From contig NC_091134.1 of the NCBI RefSeq assembly GCF_041381155.1, positions 1,360,001 through 1,424,000 on the forward strand: a stretch of DNA of 64,000 nt. The letters run 5' to 3'. The notes under the pieces were generated by a model. It was not told the origin of the DNA, did not search any database, and saw nothing but the letters and a program-made list of their open reading frames with translations. Position 1 is the stretch's first letter; each line of letters begins with the position of its first letter. This DNA comes from Argopecten irradians (taxonomy: Eukaryota > Mollusca > Bivalvia > Pectinida > Pectinidae). Shown piece after piece: positions 1 to 40,187 of this stretch. The position numbers were made by a program, and so were the translations under genes.

Positions 1-3000
1 AGTAGTTAGGTCTGTAACAATAGAAAGAGGAGAATATTATCAGACATCACATCGTAGACCGTGGTTAGGTCTGTAACAATAGAAAGAGGATAATATTATC
101 AGACATCACATCGTAGACCGTGGTTAGGTCTGTAACAATAGAAAGGGGATATTATTGTCAGACATCACATCGTAGACCGTGGTTAGGTCTGTAACAATGT
201 AAAGGGGATATTATTGTCAGACATCACATCGTAGACCGTGGTTAGGTCTGTAACAATAGAAAGAGGAGAATATTATCAGACATCACATCGTAGACAGTGG
301 TTAGGTCTGTAACAATAGAAAGAGGAGAATATTATCAGACATCACATCGTAGACCGTGGTTAGGTCTGTAACAATGTAAAGAGGATAATATTGTCAGACA
401 TCACATCCTCGACAGTAGTTAGGTCTGTAACAATAGAAAGAGGATAATATTGTCAGACATCACATCGTAGACCGTGGTTAGGTCTGTAACAAAGTAAAGA
501 GGATAATATTGTCAGACATCACATCCTCGACAGTAGTTAGGTCTGTAACAATAGAAAGAGGAGAATATTATCAGACATCACATCGTAGACCGTGGTTAGG
601 TCTGTAACAATAGAAAGAGGATAATATTGTCAGACATCACATCGTAGACCGTGGTTAGGTCTGTAACAATAGAAAGAGGATATTATTGTCAGACATCACA
701 TCGTAGACCGTGGTTAGGTCTGTAACAATGTAAAGGGGATATTATTGTCAGACATCACATCGTAGACCGTGGTTAGGTCTGTAACAATAGAAAGAGGAGA
801 ATATTATCAGACATCACATCGTAGACAGTAGTTAGGTCTGTTACAACATCGTAGACAGTGGTTAGGTCTGTAACAATAGAAAGGGGATATTATTGTCAGA
901 CATCACATCGTAGACCGTGGTTAGGTCTGTAACAATGTAAAGAGGATATTATTGTCAGACATCACATCGTAGACAGTGGTTAGGTCTGCAATAATGTAAA
1001 GAGGAGAATATTGTCAGACATCACATCGTAGACCGTGGTTAGGTCTGTAACAATGTAAAGAGGAGAATATTATCAGACATCACATCGTAGACCGTGGTTA
1101 GGTCTGTAACAATGTAAAGAGGATAATATTGTCAGACATCACATCGTAGACAGTGGTTAGGTCTGTAACAATAGAAAGAGGATAATATTGTCAGACATCA
1201 CATCGTAGACCGTGGTTAGGTCTGTAACAATGTAAAGAGGATAATATTGTCAGACATCACATCGTAGACCGTGGTTAGGTCTGTAACAATGTAAAGAGGA
1301 TAATATTGTCAGACATCACATCGTAGACCGTGGTTAGGTCCGTAACAATGGAAAGAGGATAATATTGTCAGACATCACATCGTAGACAGTGGTTAGGTCC
1401 GTAACAATGTAAAGAGGATAATATTATCAGACATCACATCGTAGACCGTGGTTAGGTCCGTAACAATGTAAAGGGATAATATTGTCAGACATCACATCGT
1501 AGACAGTGGTTAGGTCCGTAACAATGTAAAGAGGATAATATTGTCAGACATCACATCGTAGACCGTGGTTAGGTCCGTAACAATGGAAAGAGGATAATAT
1601 TGTCAGACATCACATCGTAGACCGTGGTTAGGTCTGTAACAATGTAAAGAGGATAATATTATCAGACATCACATCGTAGACCGTGGTTAGGTCTGTAACA
1701 ATGTAAAGAGGATAATATTGTCAGACATCACATCGTTGACAGTGGTTAGGTCCGTAACAATAGAAAGAGGAGAATATTATCAGACATCACATCGTAGACC
1801 GTGGTTAGGTCTGTAACAATGTAAAGAGGATAATATTATCAGACATCACATCGTAGACCGTGGTTAGGTCTGTAACAATGTAAAGAGGATAATATTGTCA
1901 GACATCACATCGTAGACAGTGGTTAGGTCTGTAACAATGTAAAGAGGATAATATTGTCAGACATCACATCGTAGACAGTGGTTAGGTCTGTAACAATGTA
2001 AAGAGGATAATATTGTCAGACATCACATCGTAGACAGTGGTTAGGTCCGTAACAATGTAAAGAGGATAATATTGTCAGACATCACATCGTAGACAGTGGT
2101 TAGGTCTGTAACAATGTAAAGGGGATATTATTGTCAGACATCACATCGTAGACCGTGGTTAGGTCCGTAACAATGGAAAGAGGATAATATTGTCAGACAT
2201 CACATCGTAGACCGTGGTTAGGTCTGTAACAAAGTAAAGAGGATAACATTGTCAGACATCACATCGTTGACAGTGGTTAGGTCCGTAACAATAGAAAGAG
2301 GAGAATATTATCAGACATCACATCGTAGACAGTGGTTAGGTCTGTAACAATGTAAAGAGGATAATATTATCAGACATCACATCGTAGACCGTGGTTAGGT
2401 CTGTAACAATGTAAAGAGGATATTGTTGTCAGACATCACATCGTAGACAGTGGTTAGGTCTGTAACAATGTAAAGGGGATATTATTGTCAGACATCACAT
2501 CGTAGACAGTGGTTAGGTCTGTAACAATAGAAAGGGGATATTATTGTCAGACATCACATCGTAGACCGTGGTTAGGTCTGTAACAATGTAAAGAGGATAT
2601 TATTGTCAGACATCACATCGTAGACAGTGGTTAGGTCTGCAACAATGTAAAGAGGAGAATATTATCAGACATCACATCGTAGACAGTGGTTAGGTCTGTA
2701 ACAATAGAAAGAGGAGAATATTATCAGACATCACATCGTAGACCGTGGTTAGGTCTGTAACAAAGTAAAGAGGATAATATTGTCAGACATCACATCCTCG
2801 ACAGTAGTTAGGTCTGTAACAATAGAAAGAGGAGAATATTATCAGACATCACATCGTAGACCGTGGTTAGGTCTGTAACAATAGAAAGAGGATAATATTA
2901 TCAGACATCACATCGTAGACCGTGGTTAGGTCTGTAACAATAGAAAGGGGATATTATTGTCAGACATCACATCGTAGACCGTGGTTAGGTCTGTAACAAT

Positions 3001-4826
3001 GTAAAGGGGATATTATTGTCAGACATCACATCGTAGACCGTGGTTAGGTCTGTAACAATAGAAAGAGGAGAATATTATCAGACATCACATCGTAGACAGT
3101 AGTTAGGTCTGTTACAACATCGTAGACAGTGGTTAGGTCTGTAACAATAGAAAGGGGATATTATTGTCAGACATCACATCGTAGACCGTGGTTAGGTCTG
3201 TAACAATGTAAAGAGGATTTTATTGTCAGACATCACATCGTAGACAGTGGTTAGGTCTGCAACAATGTAAAGAGGAGAATATTATCAGACATCACATCGT
3301 AGACAGTGGTTAGGTCTGTAACAATAGAAAGAGGAGAATATTATCAGACATCACATCGTAGACCGTGGTTAGGTTTGTAACAAAGTAAAGAGGATAATAT
3401 TGTCAGACATCACATCCTCGACAGTAGTTAGGTCTGTAACAATAGAAAGAGGAGAATATTATCAGACATCACATCGTAGACCGTGGTTAGGTCTGTAACA
3501 ATGTAAAGGGGATATTATTGTCAGACATCACATCGTAGACAGTGGTTGGGTCTGTAACAATGTAAAGAGGATAATATTGTCAGACATCACATCGTAGACA
3601 GTGGTTAGGTCTGTAACAAAGTAAAGAGGATAATATTGTCAGAGATCACATCGTAGACCGTGGTTAGGTCTGTAACAATGTAAAGGGGATATTATTGTCA
3701 GACATCACATCATAGACAGTGGTTAGGTCTGTAACAATGTAAAGAGGATAATATTGTCAGACATCACATCGTAGACCGTGGTTAGGTCTGTAACAATGTA
3801 AAGAGGATATTATTGTCAGACATCACATCGTAGACCGTGGTTAGGTCTGTAACAATGTAAAGAGGATATTATTGTCAGACATCACATCGTAGACAGTGGT
3901 TAGGTCCGTAACAATGGAAAGATGATAATATTGTCAGACATCACATAGTAGACCGTGGTTAGGTCTGTAACAATGTAAAGGGGATATTATTGTCAGACAT
4001 CACATAGTAGACAGTGGTTAGGTCCGTAACAAAGTAAAGGGGATATTATTGTCAGACATCACATCGTAGACAGTGGTTAGGTCCGTAAAAATGGAAAGAT
4101 GATAATATTGTCAGACATCACATCGTAGACCGTGGTTAGGTCTTCTGTAACAATGTAAAGAGGATAATATTATCAGACATCACATCGTAGACCGTGGTTA
4201 GGTCTGTAACAAAGTAAAGAGGATATTATTGTCAGACATCACATCGTAGACAGTGGTTAGGTCCGTAAAAATGGAAAGATGATAATATTGTCAGACATCA
4301 CATCGTAGACCGTGGTTAGGTCTGTAACAATGTAAAGAGGATAATATTATCAGACATCACATCGTAGACCGTGGTTAGGTCTGTAACAAAGTAAAGAGGA
4401 TATTATTGTCAGACATCACATCCTCGACAGTAGTTAGGTCTGTAACAATGTAAAGAGGATAATATTGTCAGACATCACATCGTAGACCGTGGTTAGGTCT
4501 GTAACAATGTAAAGAGGATAATATTATCAGACATCACATCGTAGACCGTGGTTAGGTCTGTCACAATGGAAAGAGGATATTATTGTCAGACATCACATCG
4601 TAGACAGTGGTTAGGTCTGTAACAATAGAAAGAGGATATTATTGTCAGACATCACATCGTAGACAGTGGTTAGGTCCGTAACAATGTAAAGAGGATAATA
4701 TTGTCAGACATCACATCCTCGACAGTAGTTAGGTCTGTAACAATGTAAAGAGGATATTATTGTCAGACATCACATCGTAGACAGTGGTTAGGTCCGTAAC
4801 AATGAAAAGATGATGATATTGTCAGG
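1..4826. repeat. 59-bp tandem array (minisatellite)
   Basis: About 80 head-to-tail copies of a 59-bp unit containing GTGGTTAGGTCTGTAACAAT and CAGACATCACATCGTAGAC; the array already runs at base 1, so its true start is outside the window. Copies differ at a few recurring sites (CCGTGG/CAGTGG, ATAGAAAG/TGTAAAG/AGTAAAG, CATCGTAG/CATCCTCG), and variants recur in blocks. Two half-length units (near 840 and 3,111) mark internal duplications. In the minus-strand direction the array follows exon 3 of the cysteine-rich gene at 4,977-9,025, so it should lie in that gene's last intron. No open frame of note. Confidence 0.97.
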
Positions 4827-14544: not shown

Positions 14545-15328
14545 GTTGTCCAGACGACCAGACATCAGACTAGGCAGAAAAAATCAGACGTGGCTAAATT
14601 TGAGTTTCCTAGATGAGGAAAACAGACGCAGCCAATCTTGTGATTCCCTGCATGTGTTCGTGATTGAAACTCGTTTGAGGCATGCGCAGATTAATTACTT
14701 TCAAACGTGATAGAGACATTTGTGTCAGACACACGCGAATTAGTTCTATAATTGGACTGAACGGGAAGTGGAGGAAGGTCAATCCAAGTGGGAGCTTTTT
14801 GGTCCTCTATATTTCTGTTTGACTTGTCTATAGTGTGTCTTTGTTTGCTATATTCATTATTGTATGACATATTGACGGTATTTAAGGTCAGTGTGTAAAT
14901 TGTGTATCAATGATAATAGATATATCTATTATACATTTTCATCTTAATGTGTGGTTCACTTCATCCCGATGTGTAGTATAGGGGAGGTTTGTCATAAAAA
15001 ACATCACCACTGAATAAGTCCTATCTTGTGGTGAAGTAAACTGAATCACGATAAAGATTGAGCGAAGCTTTGCGTGCAGATCAGATGAGGAAACAATGAT
15101 TGACGTTCAGACGATTGGAAAATATTGAACGCTGTACTAATGTTACGTAGACCCGTCAGAAAGTCTGAAATAAGAAAATGCAGATATGTTTATTTAATAA
15201 TGCATGTATTTAACATTTGGAATGTGGAATGTCTGGGGAAAACAATGACCGGATCGTGTTGTTGGCTGTATAAAGTAACAATAATCCTATCATGGGATAC
15301 ACAGCCCAAACATACCACAGCCTCCCCG
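14545..15328. other. Intergenic, no gene seen
   Basis: Upstream flank of cysteine-rich copy 2, up to the minisatellite. No splice-compatible coding segment and no clear TATA box. An open frame beginning near 15,125 only gains length by running into the 25-bp repeat. Confidence 0.5.
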
Positions 15329-17007
15329 ACCTCTCACAACGTAGCCTACACCGACCTCACACAAGGTAGCCTACACAGACCTCACACAAGGCAGCCTACA
15401 CCGACCTCACACAAGGTAGCCTACACAGACCTCACCAAGGCAGCCTACACCGACCTCACACAAGGTAGCCTACACCGACCTCACACAAGGCAGCCTACAC
15501 CGACCTCACACAAGGCAGCCTACACCGACCTCACACAAGGTAGCCTACACCGACCTCACACAAGGCAGCCTACACCGACCTCACACAAAACAGCCTACAC
15601 CGACCTCACACAAGGTAGCCTACACCGACCTCACACAAGGCAGCCTACACCGACCTCACACAAGACAGCCTACACCGACCTCACACAAAGCCTACACGAC
15701 CTCAACAAGTAGCCTACACCGACCTCACACAAGGTCAGCCTACACAAGCCTCACACAAGCAGCCTACACCGACCTCACACAAGGCAGCCTACACGGGCCT
15801 CACATCAAAGGTAGCCTACACCGACCTCACACAAGGCAGCCTACACGGACCTCACACAAGGTAGCCTACACCGACCTCACACAAGGCAGCCTACACCGAC
15901 CTCACACAAGGCAGCCTACACCGACCTCACACAAGGTAGCCTACACCGACCTCACACAAGGTAGCCTACACCGACCTCACACAAGGCAGCCTACACCGAC
16001 CTCACACAAGGCAGCCTACACCGACCTCACACAAGGCAGCCTACACCGACCTCACACAAGGCAGCCTACACCGACCTCACACAAGGCAGCCTACACCGAC
16101 CTCACACAAGGCAGCCTCCCGACCTCACACAGGCAGGACCTCACAAGGCAGCCTTCACCGACCTCACACAAGGCAGCCTACACCGACCTCACCGACCTCA
16201 ACAAGGCAGCCTACACCGACCTCACACAAGGCAGCCTACACGGACCTCACACAAGGCAGCCTCCCGACCTCACAAAGGCAGCCTCACCGACCTCAACAAG
16301 GCAGCCTACACGACCTCACACAAAGCCTACACCGCCTACAGCCTTCACCGACCTCACTCAGGCAGCCTCCACCGACCTCACACAACAGGACCTCACACAA
16401 GCAGCCTACACGACACCTCACACACAAGACTCACACAAGGCAGCCTACACCGACCTCACACATAAGCAGGCAGCCTACACCGACCTCACACAAGAGCTAC
16501 ACCGACCACAAAGGTACCAGACCTTACACAAGGCGCCTCACACTCACAGGCAACCTACACCGACCTCACACATGGCAGCCTACACCGACCTCACCCAAGG
16601 CAGCCTCCCCGACCTCACACAAGGTAGCCTACAACGGCCTCACACAAGGCAGCCTACACCGACCTTACACAAGGCAGCCTCCCCGACCTCACACAAGGCA
16701 GCCTACACCGACCTCACACAAGGTAGCCTACACCGACCTCACACAAGGCAGCCTACACCGACCTCACACAAGGCAGCCTCACCGACCTCACACAAGGCAG
16801 CCTACACCGACCTCACACAAGGCAGCCTACACCGACCTTACACAAGGCAGTCTACACCACTCACACAAGGCAGCCTACACCGACCTCACACAAGGCAGAC
16901 CCCGACCTCATACAAGGTAGCCTACACCGACCTCACACAAGCAGCTACACCGGCCTCACACAAGGCAGCCTACACCGACCTTACACAATGCAGCCTACAC
17001 CGACCTA
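15329..17007. repeat. 25-bp tandem array
   Basis: Roughly 65 copies of CTCACACAAGGCAGCCTACA plus CCGAC (25 bp), with substitutions and small indels that are densest at 16,120-16,560. Because 25 is not a multiple of three, each frame cycles through a 25-residue repeat. The long open frames here (15,125-15,712; 16,572-17,030) are therefore repeat artefacts. Confidence 0.97.
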
Positions 17008-17470: not shown

Positions 17471-18076
17471 ATTTAATTCCGCGCAAAAATTAATAACAGA
17501 GTATGATGAATCCCAAGTACATATCCTCTTCGAGTTGGGTATAGAATACTCGCAAGTAAGACTATTTTAGTTCTTAGATTGTGAAGGTGCTCAGTTGTGG
17601 AAAGTTGTTAATTTGTATTTGTTAAAACTTATCTCATAGCTACGGAACAATTAATGTTACTTATTACAAGAATACCTCGCGAAAAAAATCGAAACACGCA
17701 AAAATTAAAACAAAGAAAAAAACACCGATCGTCAGTTAGCGTGTAATACATTTATCTAAAACTAGGACAGATACTGTCTTATCAGATCCGGTTCACAAAG
17801 TCTATTACAACAAAGAGGAAAACCACACAATCATACTCAGATAACAGAAAGTATAATACTAATAATATTTGTCTCTAGGTGGCGCTGAACAGACTGGTAA
17901 ACACACGAAGCATGAGGATGTATGTATTTGTTTAGATTCATTGTTTTATTGTAACATTTAGCACTAAGAGTGATGAGACGAATGCTTTTGGGGTTTTAAT
18001 TTTTTAAACGGACAAGTTAGACGTCTGGTGTTTTGGTATGATTAACAGTTATCAATATATCCTAATTGTCCTCCGC
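17471..18076. other. Gap without a gene
   Basis: AT-rich sequence between a SINE fragment and the 19-bp array. I see no exon, tRNA or repeat. Confidence 0.5.
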
Positions 18077-19560
18077 AGGTGTCTTACTGGCGATCAGGTG
18101 TCTAACTGGCGATCAGGTGTCTAACTGACGATCAGGTGTCTAACTGGCGATCAGGTGTCTAACTGGCGATCAGGTGTCTAACTGGCGATCAGGTGTCTAA
18201 CTGGCGATCAGGTGTTTAACTGGCGATCAGGTGTTTAACTGGCGATTCAGGTGTTTAACTGGCGATCAGGTGTGCGATTAACTCGCAATCAGGTATTAAC
18301 TGGCGATCGATCAGGGTGTCTCACTAGCGATCTGGTGTTTAACTGGCGATCCTGTGTTTAACTGGCGATCAGGTGTTTAACTTGCGATCGGGTGTCTAAC
18401 TAGCGATCAGGTGTTTAACTGGCGATCAGATGTCTAACTGACGATCAGGTGTCTAACTGGCGATCAGGTGTTTAACTGGCGATCAGGTGTCTAACTGGCG
18501 ATCAGGTGTCTAACTGGCGACCATGTGTTCAACTGGCGATCAGGTGTTTAAACTATATTTCAGGTGTCTAACTAGCGATCAGGTGTCTAACTGACGATCA
18601 GGTGTCTAACTGGCGACCATGTGTTCAACCTGGCGATTCGGTGTTTAACTGGCGATCAGGTGTTTAACTTGCGATCGGTTGTCTAACTGCGATCAGGTAT
18701 TTAATTGGCGATCAGGTGTTTAACTAGCTATCAGTTGTCTAACTAGCGATCTGGTGTTTAACTGACGATCAGGTGTTAACTTGCGTTCAGGTGCTTAACT
18801 GGCGATCAGGTGTTTAACTAGCGATCAGGTGTCTAACTTGGTAATCAGGTGTTTAACTAGCGTTCAGGTGTTTAACTAGCGATCAGGTGTTTAACTTGCG
18901 TTCAGGTGTTAACTAGCGTTCAGGTGTTTAACTGGCGATCAGGTGTTTAACTAGCGATCAGGTGTCTAACTTGCAATCAGGTGTTTAACTAGGGTTCAGG
19001 TGTTTAACTAGCAATCAGGTGTTAACTTGCGTTCAGGTGTTAACTAGCGTTCAGGTGTTTAACTAGCGATCAGGTGTCTAACAGGCGATCAGGTGTTTAA
19101 CTGGCAATCAGGTGTTCAACTGGCGATCAAATGTTTAACTGGTGATCAGGTGTTTAACTTGCGATCCGGTGTTTAACTAGCGTTCAGGTTTTAACTGGCG
19201 ATCAGGTGTTTAACTAGCGATCAGGTGTTCAACTGGCGATCAGGTGTCTAACTGGCGATCAGGTGTTTAACTGGCAATCAGGTGTTCAACTGGCGATCAG
19301 GTGTCTAACTGGCAATCAGGTGTTTAACTGGCGATCAGGTGTTAACTGGCAATCAGTGTTTAACTGGCGATCAGGTGTTTAACTAGCGATCAGGTGTTCA
19401 ACTGGCGATCCGGTGTCTAACTGGCAATCAGGTGTTCAACTGGCGATCAAATGTTTAACTGGTGATCAGGTGTTTAACTGGCAATCAGGTGTTCAACTGG
19501 CGATCAGTAAATGAACATGTGATCAAGTTAAAGGCAGGTGTCTAACTGGTGATCAGTGTT
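18077..19560. repeat. 19-bp tandem array
   Basis: About 75 copies of GTGTTTAACTGGCGATCAG, with common variants (CTAACT, AGCGATC, GCGTTCAG). The centre is more diverged than the left edge, and single-base length changes are frequent. Non-coding. Confidence 0.96.
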
Positions 19561-20365: not shown

Positions 20366-20819
20366 TCTATGAAACCTTATCCGGCTGGACCTAGGTTCGT
20401 ATTGCAGATGTCGTTCGTAAGGGGAAGGACGCTTTGTCTTCCGGAATCATAGGTTCGACATCATCAATGTATAGATAGATGAAATAGACATGTTGAATCC
20501 TTCCTAGTGTATTACATGCAATATATGGCCACCGAGAAATTATAGTGCTCCTTTAATATCGGAGTTCCTTTACTCAAAGGACCTGCATACTTTTGAGAAT
20601 TTGATATCGTTTTACGAAATTTTATGAAAAATTTATATGAAATTTTACAGGTTCTCTGTCAAAGTACTTAAATTGGTTCATGTTATGTATATTGGTAGCT
20701 GTAAAGGTTCTTTCCACAGTTATAATCATATGTGCCGTTATACTGTAAACCAACTATCTTTATTGATTATGTTGTTTGCTAATATGAATCGCACGCGACA
20801 GAATTTTGCTTTACAGTAT

Positions 20820-22869
20820 ATGCTTTATATAGGTACTCATTTTAGTCTGTTGTATTTCAGAATATCCTTTCAATATGCTCAGCTCATCTCAGTGGTGTCC
20901 ATCTTCCTACTGTCCACCATATCCTGTCAACAGACCACAAGAGTCAATACTCTTCTCGGACAAATAGAAGGTATAGTAAAAATCGTCAGAAATGAAACAG
21001 TGTACCAGTTTAGGAAAATCCCGTACGCCAAACCTCCCACTGGCGACCTTAGATTCGCCAAACCTGTGCCGCATGGCTCATGGTCCGGGGTACTAAATGG
21101 GACCAGATTTGGGCCGTCGTGTATGCAACCGCCTTATGAGAACTATATATATGACAAATTCAAACCAGATCTAGCCTTGTCGGAGGATTGCTTAACTTTA
21201 AATATATATGTGCCCAGGAATATTTCCTTGGACGCTAGTCGATCTGTGATGGTATGGATACATGGAGGGAGTTTCTATGTCGGCCAGGGATCCATGTATG
21301 ATGGGTCCTACCTCGCCCTCACCGGGGATGTGGTTGTTGTAACGATCAACTACAGGCTGGGAGCTTTCGGGTTCCTTGCATCTCCTGAACATGGTATCCA
21401 CGGAAACTACGGTCTGTGGGATCAACGACTTGCTTTACAATGGGTCAAGTCAAATATCGCATCATTTAGTGGAAATCCTAGCTCTGTCACATTATTTGGG
21501 CAATCTGCGGGCGGGTTTTCTGTTTCGCTGCATGCAATCCTTCCAGAAAGCAAAGGGTTGTTTCATCGCGTCATATCTGAGAGTGGAAGTTCAGAGGGTC
21601 CATTTACGATATGGCATGCTGCCATTCCTACATCTGATGCACTCATTGGACTCGGTGACTGTAATAGCAGTGAATCTTATCTAGTCTGTATGAGAAATAG
21701 GTCGGCAACAGATATAGTTGAAGGTCATCAATATCTTGTTTCACAACTACTTTTCAATACTCGCTTCGAGCTGCCATCTGGTCCTGTGGTTGACAAAGAC
21801 TTTCTCCCTTCGGACCCTCATAACATACTAATGAACAAAAGTTCTGATAATTATCGTTTCTTTCAGTCTCTTGATTTTATAACTGGGAATGTGGATTCAG
21901 AAGGCTCAATATCTATTGGCATATTATCCTATTTCGATGGAGGGTTTACTACTGGTTTTAATCGCATGAATTTGGTTACATTGTGTGACTATTTCTTACC
22001 CGACTTTACAAAGTTTATCTTTCGTGAGAAGAATAGACCAGCCCTGTCCAAGATTTTGTGTTCTTTCTATGCAGCTTCGAATTCGTCTCATCAGGAGCAA
22101 AACGCTATGCATGCATATGCAGACGCCACTTTGATAGCTCCAGCGGTGAAAACTCTTTTGGAGCATTCGAATGATAATAATTTAACAAATTCATTTCAGT
22201 ATTTATTTCATCGTCGTGATATTGATCCGATACCCCAAAATTTGTATAGTATCTGGACAAATGGATCTACCCATGGCGCAGAAATGGCTTACCTGTTTGG
22301 TCTTGAGGATTATCCAGCGATGTATAACATATCGGTTACACCTGCTGATGTGGATTTGTCGAGAACCATGATGAAATATTGGACAAATTTTGCTAAAACA
22401 GGGTAAGGTTTCATCTTTGTATTTTATAATGCATTTATTACTTCAGCATCATGCAATAACTAACATGCTAGTAACTGAGGATTGCTAAGAATTGTGCAAT
22501 CTTATCAACAGAGATCATCTTCCTCGCGTAATTTATAGAAGCAAAATCCACTTAATGTAAAACCAGAGATACCTGAGTATACCCTATGAAATAACATACA
22601 ATGCATGCCAGATCAAATTATATTTTGTTACATACAGTATATTGCAGTAGCTTTAGATCTAATTATAAAGTTTTGTTTATATCAGTGATCCGAACTCTGA
22701 TGGTGTGCCGAGATGGGAAACGTATAACGTCACCAGAACGAACTACATCAACCTTGATCTAAACATCACACAGGGACAACAGCTGTACAGTTCTAGAGTC
22801 AACCTTTGGCTAAACATTCTTCCCAGGTTACTTCAGGAACACGCCCCCGGGATTATTGTTGGAAAGTGA
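20820..22869 (+). CDS. Carboxylesterase / cholinesterase-family hydrolase (two exons)
   Basis: Exon 20,820-22,402 (donor GTAAGG) joins 22,686-22,869 (acceptor ATATCAG) in frame, giving 588 residues. This alpha/beta-hydrolase is probably secreted or membrane-tethered, and should cleave carboxylic esters. Numbered from this start: hydrophobic signal about 25-37 (SVVSIFLLSTISC), EDCLTLNIYVPR near 123-134, oxyanion HGGS near 148, nucleophile Ser229 in GQSAGG, acid Glu361 (SEGS) and His485 (STHGAEMAYLFG), so the triad is intact. Several N-glycosylation sequons are present. The C-terminal exon has the family's DPNSDGVPRWETY. There is no C-terminal tetramerisation helix or GPI-type tail, so it is not a typical acetylcholinesterase. 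The start is uncertain: the frame stays open back to 20,637, and TTGTATTTCAG at 20,850-20,860 could be an acceptor joining an unseen first exon. AATAAA lies at 22,878. Confidence 0.9.
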
Positions 22870-23216
22870 TTCAGATTAATAAAAAAACAAATGTCTTCAA
22901 ATAATGCAAAAAGGAATCTTTTATTTTAAGAAATATCCTCAAAGTCATGTTTTACGCAAGCACCTTAGGGTTCATGTCTGATCCGCCTCTTCGTCAGTTC
23001 TGTGTGTTCGTGATTCAATAAAAAAGTAGATTTTACTTCGATAAGTAGCATCACATAGATTTGGATCAGCCTGGTGGCATCATCTAGATTTGGCCATGAC
23101 TACAGGTATCCTCCGATATTGCCTACGCTGAAAGCATCACTTGAATTGACCTAGACATTTAATATGGTATGGGTTCTACCTAGACAAGTAGTATCACATT
23201 CATTTGGTGAATGTAT
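22870..23216. other. 3' flank of the esterase gene
   Basis: Contains AATAAA at 22,878-22,883 and another AATAAA near 23,018, either of which could end the esterase transcript. No further gene is seen before the 28-bp array. Confidence 0.5.
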
Positions 23217-24085
23217 TGGCTGGATTCGGCATGGCTGGTGACATTTGCTGGATTGGATAAGGCTGGTGACATTTGCTGGATTGGATAAGGCTGGTGGCAT
23301 TGGCTGGATTGGATAAGGCTGGTGGCATTGGCTGGATTGGATAAGACTGGTGGCATTGGCTGGATTGGATAAGGCTGGTGGCATTGGCTGGATTGGATAA
23401 GGCTGGTGACATTGGCTGGATTGGATAAGACTGGTGGCATTGGCTGGATTGGATAAGGCTGGTGGCATTGGCTGGATTGGATAAGACTGGTGGCATTGGC
23501 TGGATTGGATAAGGCTGGTGGCATTGGCTGGATTGGATAAGACTGGTGGCATTGGCTGGATTGGATAAGGCTGGTGACATTGGCTGGATTGGATAAGGCT
23601 GGTGACATTGGCTGGATTGGATAAGGCTGGTGGCATTGGCTGGATTGGATAAGGCTGGTGACATTGGCTGGATTGGATAAGGCTGGTGACATGGCTGGAT
23701 TGGATAAGGCTGGTGACATTTGCTGGATTGGATAAGGCTGGTGGCATTGGCTGGATTGGATAAGGCTGGTGGCATTGGCTGGATTGGATAAGGCTGGGAC
23801 ATTGGCTGGATTGGATAAGGCTGGTGCATTGGCTGGATTGGATAAGCTGGTGCATGGCTGGATTGGATAAGGCTGGTGACATTGGCTGATTGGATGTAAG
23901 GCTGGATTGGATAAGACTGGTGGCATTGCAGGCTGGGATGGGCCAGGCTGGTGACAGACGGGATTGAATTGGTAATGCGGGCTGGATTGGCGCAGGCTAG
24001 TGGCATGGGGAGGATTGTGCCTGCCTGGTGGCATTGCGGCGTGGGTTTGGACTGGATTGCGGCGTGGGTAGGACTAGACTGGATT
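23217..24085. repeat. 28-bp tandem array
   Basis: About 25 regular copies of GCTGGATTGGATAAGGCTGG plus TGGCATTG, degenerate after about 23,890. All three minus-strand frames stay open through it with the same shuffled peptide, because stops are absent from the unit and 28 is not a multiple of three. These are not genes. Confidence 0.96.
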
Positions 24086-26139: not shown

Positions 26140-29100
26140 TTATTCAGTTGTATTCAGACATTGAGTATTAAAATCAACAATATTATACCATTTCAAATGA
26201 TTATCTAGAAAATATTTTAAATGATGCAGGTGACACAAACCTCTGTGAAGTTTCCTACAAAACATCAGTTCGTTTGTTCTATCCTTTCCATTATATAGAA
26301 CACGAAAGAATCCCTGTGCTGGATTGGTATTTACACGTTTTGTATAAAGTTCAAACACAAACCTTGAGGCATATGGAGGCCACTTCCCGTCTGAATGAAA
26401 TCCAAATATAGAAAGTAATGGTGTTAATGATATATCATGCCCTGAATATAAGAAAAATTTTGGAGAGATTTTTAGAAGAACAGTATTCTTCATTCGAATA
26501 AATATTTCAGATAATAATGGATGTAATGATAAATGAGCAAATTTTAAATATGGTTCATTTTGTGTTTTGAATTTCACGCCGTCTAAATCAACAGTTTCCC
26601 ACACTTTGTCAATTAACTTTTTGTTGATACATGCAGCATTTCTTCTGTTGCATGGTAATTCCACCTGGTGACAAACTTGAGTCATCACAATATCCAAGAC
26701 AGCGGCCAACCAGGGCACTTGGTGCGGCTTAATATCGTAAATATCAGCTAATTGTCGCACCAATAGCCTGTGTCCAGTATCATTACGATTGTGACTTCCT
26801 GCCATACCGTTGGATTGGAGTTTAAAAATCTGAGCTAATGGACATCTACATGTAAGTCCTGTAATCTCGGGTGAACAAAATAATAAATCTGGGGAAAGAT
26901 GTACTTGAATTTTCTGTAAATCAAAATCGGGAAGAAAACCATATAAAAAGGCAATAGCACTTTGGAATGTTCTTGAGTATTCTGTACTTCTAATGTGTAT
27001 ATCTTCATATGAAAAACTGTCCTTGAATAGTTTTGTGAAATACTTTTCTTGGAGAAATTCTCCAATGTTCAAGTGTTGATGTGCCCCAATAGGTGTAAGT
27101 TGAGCTCCATCACAGATATTTTTATTCGGGTATAACTCCCAATTTCTGAAATCACTTTGTGGATGAAAATTGGTTTCTGTTTTCTGTAAATTATTCAGAT
27201 AGCTAGTGAGCTTTTGGTTCTTCTCCAAGAATCCCGAGTCAAACTTGCATGATAACTTTGAGTTTGGGTGATTGATGATACTATGTATTGGTGAACGGTC
27301 GCCATGACGAATAATAATGTGAACAGATCTTAACTGGAACTCTTCTCCAACATTTCCTGTAAAAACAAAGAAAAAAAACCCAAGTCACTTAATAATTCTT
27401 TTGATAACATATTCACTTGTAAAATCATTCACTTGTGTATAATTATTGTTAGAGTTATTTCCCTTTACAGCTTTTCACATGAATTTCAGGAAAAATTGTT
27501 GTGTTTCTGGTAATATTGTTTTCATATCTCTGAGAATGGTGAACTGTTGTTTGAATGATGGTTCATGATTGTTTCTGATGATTACCATATTGGACAACCA
27601 ACAAACTTGTCTTTAATATTTATTTATTTCCCATATATAAAACTCATTGTTTTGTGTATGATATGTGTTAAAAATGTTAGAGTTACTTCCCTTACAACTA
27701 ACATATCTTATAAATCTTAGAATCATTACCAATATATTCTCTGAATAATTTTTAACATGTTCTAATTGAAATGTTATACAGGTACATGTACCCGCACTAC
27801 ATCAAAAATTAATTATGATATGCCTCCAAAATATATTAAATGCAGTAATGGAAGCCATAACAGTACTCATTTATTTAGACCTGTTCCATAGTAAGATATA
27901 AATGCCCCCTTCATATGAAATCAGCAAGGGACAGAATAAGTCAGATTGACATGGAAATGAAAATAAACGCTTTATATCATTACATTTCCCATCCACACAG
28001 TGACAGGGCGTAAGAGTTTCGAGTCCCCAGGCTTAATTCTCTATCATTTTACCTTCCTCACTCCTCCACAAGTCCTCAGAAGGAGGGTTACAGTACTCCT
28101 TTACTCTCCCCTCCACAGCTATAAAATTCCTCTGTGACCTAGGCAGTGTTTTCCCTGCTGTAGGCCTGTCAGTAAACTGTGTTCCTCTGTCCCTGGGGTC
28201 AGGCCGATAGTGTACTCCAGTAACATCTTCAAGCGTGGATGGAGGGATTATTCCTCTGTCGGTTTGAAACAGGTGAGGTGTCAGACGAGTCTTAGGGGTC
28301 TGTGGTAGGTCATTCAGGTAGACATCTGAAAACAAAGGAACATTCTTCACATGATATTGGTGTGTATATAATGCACAATTCATAAGGCAAATAAACTTAT
28401 TGGAGATTTATCTACATCCATGGTGTACGTGTGTAATAATCAATCTAAGTAAAATCATCTGTTTATGGCTTTTGTCAGGCTATATACAGATATATTCACT
28501 CTTGGAGTGGAGGCGCAACGTCCTTTGATGTCGAAATTGTTGACATTCTCGATATTCTAATATTTTACAAAAAACACAGATATATTATTGTATTCAGATT
28601 GATGTAATAATTAACTTCATCAATTTCTATGTATTGTTGATATTATACACATATACATGTAAGCACTGGTACTACAAATTAAAATGTGGATCACTTTAGT
28701 TTTTAGCCACACATCTAAAACATTTAGAAGAAGTAACTAATAATAATTGTTATAATTTAAGTGTACCTGGTAGCATACACAGGTACATTTGTACGTCATG
28801 TATGCATGTATCTGTGAAACAAAAGACATACACTTCATCAATTTCTGCACATGATGATGATAAAGGTATGTAGGCCTATATGCTTTCCCAACTGGCGAGA
28901 ATGTCTAGGTCTTTTTGCGGAGCGATGGCATCACAAGTGGATGTAACTGCTAAATAGTACATTATCTTATCGTCTGTGAAAAGCCTGACAGAGGAGGAGA
29001 TACCGTCAGCAATATCATTTATATAGAATAAAAATAAGCTGGGTCCTAGAACTGACCCTTGAGGTACACCAGAATTAACAGGTACAGTGTCAGATGATTC

Positions 29101-30701
29101 ATTTCACCATCTAGTACATGTACAACAGTTTGTGATCTGCCAATAAGGAAGTTTTTGATCCATGTATTGGTCTTAACTTGGATACCATACTGATATAGCT
29201 TATGGACCAGGAGATGGTGACTTACCTTATCAAAGGCTTTACTGAAATTCATGATCAGTACATCAGTTTGTTTAACAAAATCTACATTTTTGGAAACATC
29301 ATCAACAAATTCTAAAAGTTGGGATTCACATGAGCGTTTTTGGCGGAAGCCATGCTGTAGAGGATAGAGTATGATATGTACAGGTTGGGCACAACCCTGC
29401 ACATGGGTAATAGTTACCCATTTGAGTAACAGTTACCTGTTTGTAGTAATTTAATTACCCAAATGAGTAATTCTGTGAAAAGAAAACACATAATGTTGTT
29501 TTAAAAATCATTATCAAAAAAGGGCGTCATAATTTTTAGAATGTCCTACAACTGATCTAAGACTCTATGTTTCTGTGGGTGAAATATCAAATTCTGTTGT
29601 CTAACTTTGTTGTAAGATGACAATTTAGGTGCTCTCAATTGACTACAGTGTATATAGCCATCAGGGAGATTCAGTGCAAATGCCATGGTTGAATGAATGT
29701 TACCTGTGTTCTATTTTTAGCACCATAGTAAGCAATGGAGGTGGTTTAGTTTGTGACTTTTACCAAAATTGAGACAGTGAAGTTTGTCACATTTTGATTG
29801 ATAATGTACTAAGTTATGTTAGTAATGGTGTCATGTCAAATTTATTATGCCCTTTTTTGATAAAAAAAAAGTTTAAAACAGCTTCATGCATTTTTCTTGC
29901 ACAAAATTCTTCATTTAGGTAACTTATTGATTACTCAAACAGGTAACTGTTGTAGCGGGATTGGACTGGGGTTGATCATCGGTGACCAGGTAGCTCAGTC
30001 GGTAGAGCACTCGGCTAGTATTCTGAGGGTCCCGGGTTCGAATCCCGGTCTGGCCGCTGCATTTTCTCCTCTCCTATTACAGAATTGGCGCCCAACTAGA
30101 TAACCCACGGTGGTGGTGTTTGGAAGGGTCTCGTGTGTCTTCGAGGGCGAAGACTTCGAGAAAGGAGGGAGGAGTGTAGCGGGATTGGACTGGGGTTGAT
30201 CATCGGTGACCAGGTAGCTCAGTCGGTAGAGCACTCGGCTAGTATTCTGAGGGTCCCGGGTTCGAATCCCGGTCTGGCCGCTACATTTTCTCCTCTCCTG
30301 TTACACTGTTACTCAAATGGCCCATGGGTAACTGTTACTCATGTGCAGGGTTGTGCCCAACCTGATGTATGTCGTAAAGTTGTTATCATCTGTATATATG
30401 TGCATATACGGGGTACAATACATGCGTAGTTCATTTATGATTACTCGAGAATGTCCTTTACACTACGTACGGATAACGTAGCCTACAGTAGTCTATGGTG
30501 TATGCGAAAAGGTAACAGGTAGGTCTGACTTATGCTAGTTATGGCTCAACCAGTGGTGCATGACATCAACATACAACTGGCTAATCTAACGTTGCTTTTA
30601 TCTTCCTTTTCGAGACACTTACTAAAATACCAATAAAGAAGGATAAATCCAGTTCCTCCAAAACAAATGGTCAACGTCTGTTTTCGCAAACATCGCATCA
30701 T
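26140..30701 (-). CDS. PXYLP1: 2-phosphoxylose phosphatase 1 (histidine acid phosphatase family), three exons
   Basis: Minus-strand exons 30,623-30,701, 28,053-28,325 and 26,140-27,356 join in frame (phases 1 and 1; donors GTAAGT and GTAAAA; acceptors TTTTCAG and TTTACAG) into 522 residues. In vertebrates the enzyme removes the 2-phosphate from xylose in the glycosaminoglycan linker in the Golgi, allowing proteoglycan chains to extend. Residues 1-26 (MMRCLRKQ..GFILLYWYF) form a type II signal anchor. RHGDRSP at 134-140 carries the catalytic His135, and SGHD at 422-425 holds the second histidine-aspartate pair. SRTFQSAIAFLYGFLPDFD matches the human protein almost word for word. The length is slightly above the human 480 because of a longer stem. 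AATAAA (26,139-26,144) overlaps the stop codon. Intron 1 is packed with nested mobile elements. The symbol is by family recognition; orthology was not tested by tree. Confidence 0.9.
28878..29380 (-). pseudogene. LINE reverse-transcriptase fragment (jockey/CR1-like)
   Basis: Minus-strand reading gives LYPLQHGFRQKRSCESQLLE, FSKAFDKVSHHLLVHKL and, after a frame change near 29,080, GVPQGSVLGPSLFLFYINDI and LFTDDK. These are RT motifs of a non-LTR element; the catalytic pair sits in TDDK where FADD is usual. It is truncated at both ends, and its 5' side is cut at 29,380 by the DNA transposon at 29,381-30,364. It lies in intron 1 of PXYLP1, in the same orientation. Confidence 0.8.
29984..30056 (+). 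other. tRNA-like module in left LTR
   Basis: About 73 nt fold as a tRNA cloverleaf. The acceptor strands GACCAGG/TCTGGCC largely pair, and the D stem is GCTC/GAGC around AGTCGGTA (box A TAGCTCAGTCGGTAGAGC). The anticodon stem CTCGG/CTGAG closes an eight-base loop (one more than normal), and the T arm CCGGG-TTCGAAT-CCCGG contains box B. The oversized loop and the LTR setting argue against a working host tRNA; an internal RNA polymerase III promoter is plausible. Confidence 0.75.
30208..30280 (+). other. tRNA-like module in right LTR
   Basis: The same 73-nt cloverleaf exactly 224 bp downstream, at the equivalent place in the second LTR. It duplicates the left module through the LTR structure and is not an independent tRNA gene. 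Confidence 0.75.
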
Positions 30702-31559: not shown

Positions 31560-34508
31560 TATATTAGGAAGAGTCTTATTGTTTAGAAGGAGAAATTACC
31601 TATGAAGAGGCAGGAAAAACTCTAAAGCTAATGAAAAACAATAAAAGCCCCGGGTCGGATGGATTTACTACAGAGTTTTTTAAAATGTTTTTTGGGGAAA
31701 ATTGGGAGAGTTTATAGTAAGATCTATTAATTTTGGTTACAATATAGGACAACTTTCAATAACACAGAGACAGGGTATAATAACATGTATTCCTAAACCA
31801 GATAAACCTAGGCATTTCATTAAAAACTGGAGACCCATCTCGTTATTAAATATTTCTTACAAAATTGCATCAGGAACTATAGCTAATAGGATAAAAACCG
31901 TTCTTCATAAATTAATAAATGATGACCAAACTGGATTTCTATCGGGTCGCTATATAGGGGTTAATACTAGACTTATATATGACATTATCCACTATACAGA
32001 GGAAAACAATATACCCGGCATGCTCCTGATGATTGACTTTGAAAAGGCATTTGACTCAGTGTCCTGGCTATTTATTGAAAAGGTTCTGCATTTCTTTGGT
32101 TTTGGTAATAGTATTGTAAACTGGTTCAAAACTTTCCATAATAATGTTCATTCAGCTATAAATAAGGGGAGGGGGGATATTTCATCTTTTTTCGATATCA
32201 GGAGGGGCTACCGGCAGGGGGACCCTATTGCACCATATCTGTTTATTCTTTGTGCAGAAGTCTTGGCTATAAAAATAAGAAGTAATAGAAATATAATAGG
32301 TATCAATATTGAAAACTGCCCCATTTTATTATCGCAATATGCGGATGACACATCACTGATACTTGATGGTTCTGAGCAGTCACTTAGGGAATCGGTAATT
32401 TTGCAGATATTTCAGGTTTGAAAATGAACATTGATAAAACTCAGGTCATTTGGATCGGTAGCAAAAAGTATAGTGAAGATAGTTATTTACCAGAGCTTAA
32501 TTTACAATGGGGTAAGACAAATTTACGTTGTTGGGAATCGAATTTAGTGTAAATCTTCACGAAATACCAAAATTGAACGTTGACAAAAAAACTTACAAAA
32601 CTAAAATCTTTAATTAAAATTTGGAATAGAAGATCATTAACACCTATTGGAAAGATTAACATTATCAAATCATTGCTCGTTTCTCAATTTAATCACCTTT
32701 TCATCTCATTGCCTAATCCAGATACTAAATTCATAAACAAACTTAATTCAATTCTATTTGATTACCTGTGGGCTTGAAAGCCAGATGAAATAAAGAGGGA
32801 GATACTTACTCAAAATTATGTTGATGGTGGTTTGAAGATGATCAATCTTGTTGCTTTCATAAACTCACTTAAACTTACATTGATCAGAAGAATTTATCAG
32901 AGTAATGAGAAATGGCAGATCTTCTTGCACATTGTAGCTCGGAATATATTAAGATATGTATAAAATATGTATAAATCTAAAAATGAATTCTGGATTGATG
33001 TATTCAAATCTTGGTACTTATTAAATTCAAAATACCTTGAGAATGTTCTGGAGAAAAACATTTTGAAAGCTCCTATTTGGTATAATAGTGAAATCAAGGT
33101 AGGAGGGAAATCTGTCTATTATAAACATTATTACCAGAAAAGCATTTTTTGTTATAAATGACATAATAAAGGAGAGTGACAAATTATTGTTTTACACATT
33201 TGAGGAATGTATTAGAATATATCGAGTAAACACAAATTTTCTACAGTATCAAGGTCTTGTCGCATCGGTCAAAACTTTTATTGCATCATGCAATTTACAC
33301 ATACAGGACATTTTTATCCCTACATACATCTCAATTTACAGATTTTTCTTAGGGATAATAAGGGTTAAAAATTTTCTACAATATTTTTGTTAAATCTGAT
33401 ATGATACCATCCGGCACCAGAAAGTGGAATGCTACATTTGACAACATAGGCAAAGTGACCTGGTGTAAAATACATCAATTGCCCTTTTGTATAACAACTA
33501 ATTCAAAGCTTCAGTGGTTCCAATATAGAGTAAATCATCATATTCTTACAACTAACTCATTTTTATCCCAAATTGGATTAGTTGTCTCCCCTCTATGTAC
33601 ATTTTGTAACTATGAACCAGAATCAATAACTCATATTTTATGGGAGTGTGAAGAAGTGCAAAAATTATTATGTAGTCTTGATACACTATTGGAAGCCCTT
33701 TTAATCCCCTTTTCAGTGGCCTTCTTCATCGTAATATTCTTCCCAGTAACAGATTAGATAATGAAATAATCATAATCATCAAACAGTATATTTACAGAAC
33801 AAGATGTTTACACAATTCATTGAATATAAATGCTCTTGTAAACATAATAAAAATCAAGTATATAATTCAAAAATATATTGCCTATGGTAAGGACGAAAAT
33901 AATAAGAGTAAATTTGATAAAGAATGGAAAAAAATGGGATTCACTTATTAATTTGTGATACATGTATTTTAAAAATGTGCATTTTATAGTTATATTTTTT
34001 TCTTTTACCACATATTTTTTCTTTGCTACCAGCTTTATTTATTCATAATTCAATTTCTTTATAAAGCCCTCCACAAAAGCCGAAGTATAGATATCTGTTC
34101 TTCATTTTCCATTTTTTGTTTCTCGTCGCTACCATCTTGTCTTCAACTATCTTTCCCTTCTTATAACCTCTCTGCCTTTTTTCTATTTTATTTTCTTAAA
34201 TTGGAACATGGGTGTGTGCTCTTTTTCTATACTTTCCACTCCGTATGGAATAAAACTACTGTTTTGCAGTGACTGCGTCAATTGTATAACTTATAGAATT
34301 TGTGTGTATATAAATCTGGTATAAATAGTGGTGACGCATGCATGAGTTTGTAAAAATGGGTATATGGTCCTACTTGTTATTGTAATACCTATTGTGTGAA
34401 TCAGATGGGTAAGTGAATTTCTTGTACATGTAAGAGTGAGAGTAAACAAGTTGATAGTTATGATATTTGTAAATTGCAATGATGAAAAACCTGAATAAAA
34501 AGAAAATT
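31560..34508 (+). pseudogene. 5'-truncated LINE, L1/Tx1-like reverse transcriptase
   Basis: Reads LEGEITYEEAGKTLKLMKNN then KSPGSDGFTTEFFK (31,580-31,700), and, in a shifted frame at 31,702-32,421, NWRPISLLNISYKI, QTGFLSGRYIGVNTRLIYDI, DFEKAFDSVSW, RRGYRQGDPIAPYLFILCAE and catalytic SQYADDTSLI. Later parts follow in other frames: INVIKS-like GKINIIKSLLVSQFNHLFIS (32,650-32,720), a Cys/His end CTFCNYEPESITHILWEC (33,595-33,655), and the ORF end near 33,951. A non-coding 3' region runs to CTGAATAAAAAGAAAATTA at about 34,490-34,508. At least three frame changes and an internal stop near 32,550 make it dead. The 5' half, including the endonuclease, is absent. Confidence 0.85.
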
Positions 34509-38940: not shown

Positions 38941-39970
38941 TCAAATGAAAAACTTGATGTTCTCTCCCAGGGTAAAGTGGTCTCGTGCACCCAGAGACTC
39001 TGGACAAAGGTTTTCTTGTCTATCTTATTATTGCATGCAACTGTTAAAGTCTATTGCAAATTTCCCTCTATGACGCGGAAACTCGTTTGATGCAGCGTTG
39101 TTGTTCTAAGCTATACGCTTTGCATTTTTTATTGACACATTCATTCTTTTTATAAATCCATTTGTATTCGTTCACCAGAGGGAAATTATACAGTTTTAAT
39201 GTAAGTTGTTTTATTTTGTATCTATATATTGTTCGTCAATATCTATCAGACATTGAAAACGAAGGGGACAGTGCGCTATACAACATCCTGTAAAACTTCA
39301 ATTACGTTTATTATATAACTCGTGTTGTCTAGAGGCCTCTAACTTAAATTTACTGACACGTTACCATGATTAATGTGATTGAAACGTCGAAAACACCATT
39401 AACTTGTCTAAGGTATTTCTATCCTTCGAGATCTCAGAGATAGATAACGTCATTTATACCCAAAGGCATGTTCTAACATTTATGGGACCAAAATGATGCA
39501 TTATTTCATGACAATCGATTTGTTGTTTACATGTTTTCCTCCCCATTGATAAGTTTTTTAGTGTTATGATTTGTTGTTTATTTATTTTTCCGCTGGTTTC
39601 TTTCTCCGATGGTTATTCAGAATTATATAATTACTCTCGACCAACATAATTTGCCCACAGCTTTTCCTATGCTAGTTTTCAACAATGACTGTAGAGATTT
39701 GGTTTATTTTGTTTTATATCCGTTAACATAAATGGCTATTTCAGGTGTCATGGTAAGGATGGGGAGGAAATCGAGAAACCGGAGAATCCGGAAAAAAGTA
39801 ATCAACCATCGGTCAGATTATGACAACTGCTCAACATGTGTTTTGGATGATCAAACCAGTGGTGTTTATACTGAATACATGAATTATAATTACTACCGCG
39901 AGTTGACATACAATAAAGACCACCTTTATTATTTGTTCATTACACACTTACACCTCCTATGTACTGTGAC
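38941..39970. other. Gap without a recognisable gene
   Basis: AT-rich; no exon, RNA gene or repeat could be supported. Confidence 0.4.
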
Positions 39971-40187
39971 ACTGCTTTCGAACCTGTGATCCTGCTTTCG
40001 AACCTGTGACCCTGCTTTCGAACCTGTGACCCTGCTTTCGAACCTGTGATCCTGCTTTAGAACCTGTGACCCTGCTTTCGAACCTGTGATCCTGCTTTCG
40101 AACCTGAGATCCTGCTTTAGAACCTGTGACCCTGCTTTCGAACCTGAGACCCTGCTTTCGAACCTGTGAGCCCGCTTTCGAACCCGA
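39971..40187. repeat. 20-bp tandem array
   Basis: About 11 copies of CCTGCTTTCGAACCTGTGAC with few variants (TTAGAACC, GTGAT, GAGAC). This short, homogeneous array suggests recent expansion. Confidence 0.93.

Follow-up and report, generated by a model that had tools for sequence, protein, structure and literature searches.

A young non-autonomous LTR retrotransposon family, probably of the Helenus kind, with tRNA-like LTR modules in Argopecten irradians

The element and its insertion site

The window, a stretch of 64,000 nucleotides of Argopecten irradians DNA, contains a 355-bp element with two long terminal repeats (LTRs), each of which carries a tRNA-like cloverleaf (Table 1). Elsewhere in the window there is a large satellite array (5-4825) whose unit is 59 bp long and which also shows higher-order periods, and there are minisatellites at 15318-17006, 18076-19507, 23215-23905 and 39964-40184 (25-, 19-, 28- and 20-bp units, respectively). 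Frames of the carboxylesterase family (20628-22406, +) and the histidine-phosphatase family (26140-27384, -) were also noted, as were two reverse-transcriptase fragments (Pfam RVT_1) at 31684-32421 (+) and, just below the family cut-off, at 29046-29432 (-), both of which are likely remains of LINEs.

Table 1. Positions of the element and its parts in the window
Feature	Position	Strand	Basis
Probable Helenus-type TRIM, complete copy, 355 bp	29951..30305	+	direct repeats, genome copies, duplications
5' LTR, TGTAG...TTACA	29951..30081	+	direct-repeat search
3' LTR, 2/131 positions unlike 5' LTR	30175..30305	+	direct-repeat search
Target-site duplication, left, CTGT	29947..29950	.	flank reading and empty site
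Target-site duplication, right, CTGT	30306..30309	.	flank reading and empty site
Primer-binding site, 11 nt complementary to host tRNA-Lys(CTT)	30086..30096	+	comparison with host genes
Polypurine tract AGAAAGGAGGGAGGAG	30159..30174	+	sequence; last base abuts 3' LTR
Internal region, 93 bp, without coding gene	30082..30174	+	no ORF of at least 120 aa
tRNA-Lys-like cloverleaf, 5' LTR	29984..30056	+	Rfam RF00005 48.4 bits; ARAGORN; 57/73 identical to host tRNA-Lys(TTT)
tRNA-Lys-like cloverleaf, 3' LTR	30208..30280	+	Rfam RF00005 48.4 bits; ARAGORN
Box A TAGCTCAGTCGG	29991..30002 (5' LTR), 30215-30226 (3' LTR)	+	position and sequence
Box B GGTTCGAATCC	30035..30045 (5' LTR), 30259-30269 (3' LTR)	+	position and sequence
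TTTT, likely weak Pol III terminator (predicted)	30062..30065 (5' LTR), 30286-30289 (3' LTR)	+	sequence

An earlier note on this DNA had described paired 131-bp LTRs with TG..CA ends, a tRNA-Lys-type primer site, a purine tract and a 4-bp target duplication, all of which were borne out. The two LTRs, of 131 nt each, are 98% identical, with mismatches at LTR positions 109 and 126. The primer site TGGCGCCCAAC begins 4 nt past the 5' LTR, and its complementarity to the 3' end of host tRNA-Lys(CTT), with CCA added, is unbroken over 11 nt, whereas the complementary run with host tRNA-Lys(TTT) is 9 nt long. The purine tract reaches the boundary of the 3' LTR, and among the open reading frames listed for the window none of at least 120 aa lies in the element. 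The 5' LTR ends in a pyrimidine-rich segment (30066-30081, CTCCTCTCC...) that is complementary to 30159-30180, where the purine tract passes into the 3' LTR.

The insertion lies within an older inverted repeat (arms at about 29370-29536 and 29838-30376), one arm of which it splits. Joined with a single CTGT, the two flanks align to the other arm across the insertion point with a score of 94, compared with scores of at most 19 for 300 shuffles. Because the other arm is aligned through the insertion point, it directly demonstrates the empty site as well as the 4-bp duplication. The host repeat is MITE-like, with ends near CAGGTTGGGC and GCCCAACCTG and with GTAACNGTTAC motifs in addition, and the element sits in its right arm.

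Copies of the element in the genome

The genome search covered 845,758,899 bases in 1,508 contigs; four exons at C11:32722225-32724520 of this genome are 73-90% identical to the scallop myosin regulatory light chain (the sequence of PDB 1b7t_Y), as would be likely for a mollusc. With the full element, at least 49 matches of 93-100% identity were obtained (40 of 2,217 first-look candidates scored), and 20 loci (L001-L020) were cut out, of which 15 are dispersed and five are members of two tandem arrays. Perfect 4-bp duplications flank 12 of the 15 dispersed copies, and in the remaining three copies three of the four bases match. The LTR pairs of these 15 copies show 0-2 differences each (11 in total, with six pairs identical), and the family looks recently active, with the qualification that the 20 loci were picked by likeness to the window copy, which biases their apparent youth upward. 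Two older copies (L128 and L130) keep the primer site, the purine tract and, as far as it was read, the tRNA-like module, and the layout is therefore older than the young copies.

We also searched the genome with three 37-mers, allowing up to three mismatches, which matched 508 junctions of the internal region with the 3' LTR, 576 junctions of the 5' LTR with the primer site and 1,368 LTR segments. Since the reversed-pattern control of each gave 0 matches, these counts place the family beyond chance. At two LTRs per internal region, 1,016-1,152 LTRs are accounted for, leaving an excess of about 220-350 solo LTRs or fragments if the patterns are equally sensitive. Sixteen LTRs on contigs C1 and C2, taken from 100 listed of the 1,368 and lacking a listed neighbor about 223 bp away, were read individually. 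Three are solo LTRs, two with perfect duplications (TAAG and CAGT) and one with a three-of-four match (CTAG/CTAT). The other 13 comprise six 3' LTRs that follow a purine tract, six 5' LTRs that precede a primer-site-like sequence and one truncated LTR of unclear type. Both the dispersed copies and the solo LTRs by which the earlier note had proposed to check its reading are thus present, and the order of LTR, primer site and purine tract is kept rather than the unit occurring mainly as tandem repeats or SINEs.

The array on contig C10 consists of six LTRs with spacings of 223, 223, 223, 223 and 225 bp between flanks reading CATG and CACG, and that on C8 has six LTR starts about 223 bp apart within one perfect 4-bp duplication (ATTA/ATTA). 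That one duplication encloses an entire array suggests a single integration, with expansion either before or after it. Such six-LTR arrays would be expected if the element were the unit of a tandem repeat or satellite that contains a tRNA pseudogene, but 15 of 20 loci are dispersed copies with duplications and each array lies between a single pair of duplicated or near-duplicated flanks, which rules out satellite identity and leaves that explanation with practically no probability.

The tRNA-like module and the relation to Helenus

The earlier note had also described a 73-nt segment with box A, box B and a near-complete cloverleaf in each LTR, and the tRNA models agree with this description. 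Both modules lie well above the RF00005 gathering score of 29, and ARAGORN, which also detects both, gives them a four-letter anticodon (agta), i.e. an 8-nt anticodon loop. Drawn as a canonical cloverleaf, the module has 20 standard pairs of 21, the exception being an A.C in the acceptor stem. The boxes were judged against the standard consensus, which is also quoted in PMC10886601. Folded alone, the 73-nt module is no more stable than its shuffles (z = -0.24), and a structure other than the cloverleaf has the minimum energy.

At the sequence level, the module and host tRNA-Lys(TTT) are 78% identical, and 55 module positions agree with tRNA-Lys(CTT); an unbroken stretch of identity with tRNA-Lys, TAGCTCAGTCGGTAGAGCA, spans box A. 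The comparison with host tRNA-Lys scores 38, and 500 shuffles reach at most 13. Lysine tRNAs were the only ones compared, such that another isotype could be the parent. To judge from these similarities, each LTR appears to carry what resembles a former lysine tRNA gene, whose A and B boxes suggest a role as a Pol III promoter. A plasmid search returned one match of 42% coverage, in a Peribacillus plasmid, which we take to be an ordinary tRNA match.

We considered selection on box A and dropped it, as box A is not conserved above the rest of the LTR in the 16 further LTRs: 6 of 180 letters are changed in box A, compared with 7 of 105 for the acceptor stretch and 8 of 282 for the LTR tail. Box B lies inside the 37-mer that was used to pick these LTRs, and its conservation is therefore not readable from them. 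In U3, 43 of 452 letters are changed, and this apparent variability arises mainly because the window copy has two private differences that account for 26 of the 43. The anticodon loop is variable, with LTR position 70 differing in 10 of the 16.

A run of four T follows the cloverleaf at a distance of 5 nt in both LTRs of the window copy. It is present in all 40 LTR readings from L001-L020 (from 37 different LTRs, since members of an array have LTRs in common) and in 14 of the 16 further LTRs, the other two having TT and TTT, where the first two T belong to the 37-mer by which these LTRs were selected. On the 3' sides of eight host tRNA-Lys genes, by comparison, the first dozen bases contain a run of 5-7 T in seven cases, the eighth gene (L102) having TTTT. 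Four-T tracts act as weak terminators in yeast, with frequent read-through, and gain strength from an RNA hairpin at most 7 nt upstream (PMC9278858).

We consider it very probable (roughly 93%) that the element belongs to a young, non-autonomous family of LTR retrotransposons of the Helenus kind, i.e. a TRIM with a tRNA-like LTR module. Helenus elements are TRIMs with tRNA-like sequences in their LTRs that occur in fungi, plants and six animal phyla; 51 families come from five bivalve orders, with bivalve primer sites for tRNA-Lys and other tRNAs, and Kojima aligned molluscan Helenus to tRNA-Lys-TTT (Kojima 2024; PMC10886601). Of the traits given there, the following are found here: a tRNA-like sequence with A and B boxes in both LTRs, a primer site just inside the 5' LTR, a polypurine tract before the 3' LTR, a non-coding sequence within the range of 311-1263 bp and the 4-bp duplications typical of animal families. 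It was by these published features that the family was placed in Helenus. A zebrafish Helenus family likewise forms tandem arrays, and oyster Helenus-2C, with 1,124 LTRs and 402 internal portions, is similar in family size to the family described here (PMC10886601). The four-T terminator is one feature of the window element for which we found no counterpart in the consulted parts of the Helenus paper, where 'TTTT' does not appear and the passage on Pol III terminators concerns Cassandra (PMC10886601). Helenus was already known from bivalves (PMC10886601), and therefore no new phylum can be claimed for it.

Other known systems fit less well. Retrozymes carry a hammerhead ribozyme in the LTR, and neither a ribozyme family nor 5S rRNA is among the window's Rfam matches at gathering thresholds, which are the two tRNA matches alone. 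5S rRNA is what distinguishes Cassandra, a TRIM of plant hosts that otherwise resembles the window element in having a small-RNA gene with Pol III promoter and terminator in its LTR and in forming arrays of alternating LTRs and internal regions (PMC10886601, PMC7215508). The earlier note had proposed an animal, tRNA-based parallel to Cassandra; such a TRIM is indeed present, but the proposal is not new, as Helenus was published in 2024 (PMC10886601). The bivalve biv-TRIM also occurs in solo and tandem forms, but its repeats are 202-218 bp long and its internal domain 77-80 bp (131 bp and 93 bp here), and the consulted parts of its description identify no canonical primer site and mention no tRNA module (PMC6934838).

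The tRNA-like Pol III promoter within each LTR might instead indicate a tRNA-derived SINE that merely resembles an LTR element. Such a SINE consists of one unit and lacks LTRs, a primer site and a purine tract, whereas the window element has two LTRs, both of these sites and 4-bp duplications; solo LTRs have duplications as well, and no A-rich or LINE-like tail was seen. SINEs are moved by LINE proteins. Anatomy and duplications together rule out SINE identity for the family, and we regard this reading as extremely improbable. Capture of a SINE by an LTR, which the earlier note had named as an alternative, is Kojima's own hypothesis for the origin of Helenus (PMC10886601), and no SINE body or tail was seen beside the cloverleaf in the LTR.

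Candidate routes of transcription and mobilization

With the element taken as a Helenus-type TRIM, its layout suggests a route by which it might be transcribed. Pol III would bind the A and B boxes of the 5' LTR cloverleaf and begin transcription near the first base of the cloverleaf, pass the weak four-T terminator of the 5' LTR in a fraction of rounds and halt at the identical signal in the 3' LTR. As the terminators of both LTRs are identical, this scheme requires leakiness, and reading past the first copy while stopping at the second would fit a weak four-T signal. The product, an RNA of some 300 nt, would bear the cloverleaf and T-run (about 80 nt) at both ends, i.e. as the R region. A predicted element RNA of 308 nt folds with z = -3.41, and none of 100 shuffles folds equally well. 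Reverse transcription would be primed by tRNA-Lys(CTT) at the primer site, and proteins of an autonomous LTR retrotransposon would copy and integrate the RNA; by Kojima's argument, in which mobilization of animal Helenus by Gypsy is inferred from primer-site similarity, these would be Ty3/Gypsy proteins (PMC10886601). We offer, as a tentative proposal that falls short of an even chance, that the whole cloverleaf is the R region and each LTR a complete Pol III unit with a leaky terminator. The promoter, start, terminator and strand-transfer repeat would then all have come from a tRNA gene at one stroke, possibly by direct capture of a tRNA-Lys gene and its terminator rather than via a SINE.

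Alternatively, a Helenus-type TRIM might have a genomic RNA made by Pol II, with the cloverleaf either a passenger or serving another role, such as RNA stability, processing or packaging. Other LTR retrotransposons use Pol II, and the poor folding of the module alone as a cloverleaf and the variation of its anticodon loop would be in keeping with this alternative. Nevertheless, neither box A nor box B is disrupted, the cloverleaf is followed by a T-run like that of a tRNA gene, and the 33 nt upstream of the cloverleaf would leave scant room for a Pol II promoter; we therefore think transcription by Pol II unlikely, while giving it a real chance.

An autonomous partner was sought among integrase places, of which 150 were scored from 1,954 first-look candidates and 70 were read. 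Forty of the 70 represent one place per apparent score cluster (from 120 without a locus) and cover only the DNA downstream of the integrase. No partner was found in these 70 of 150 places, the primer-site end lying outside the 40 that were read on the 3' side only. In a BLASTN comparison with the 70 loci (L021-L090), the element had no match of more than 19 bp, the best one (E = 0.063) lying at the purine tract/LTR start of L077. A genome search with an exclusion pattern built around the primer site gave 0 matches.

The 3' end of the internal region (30140-30174) reads FEGEDFEKGG in one frame, and the same region reads FEDEDFEKGG and FEDEDFEKEG in the older copies L128 (1-201) and L130 (1-201). 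This frame is possibly a trace of the end of a Gypsy polyprotein, and it may equally be a product of chance or part of a hairpin (TCTTCG...CGAAGA). A motif search of 30 integrase loci turned up no end of this kind, and none was seen in the other locus ends that were read. The motif TTYGARGAYGARGAYTTY occurs at 30 places in the genome (0 and 1 for the controls); the three that were read are two older Helenus copies and one unrelated sequence, and three others adjoin LTR-segment matches, by position alone.

The element adds an animal Helenus family with clean insertion evidence and the appearance of recent activity, and is otherwise an ordinary member of that published group. Its terminator, lying inside the repeat, should leak if the proposed route is correct, which makes Pol III transcription of an LTR element testable. 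Because copies exceed the Rfam threshold for tRNA, they have to be filtered out when tRNA genes are counted in such genomes.

A first look with the tRNA model over the whole genome gave 56,696 candidates, of which 63 were scored, and suggests very many tRNA-like repeats. Lysine tRNA genes, with isotypes read in only a few members, also form long regular tandem arrays, those for tRNA-Lys(TTT) on C608, C614, C672 and C10 with members mostly about 1.6 kb apart and those for tRNA-Lys(CTT) on C15, C16 and C762 with members mostly about 2.3-2.8 kb apart.
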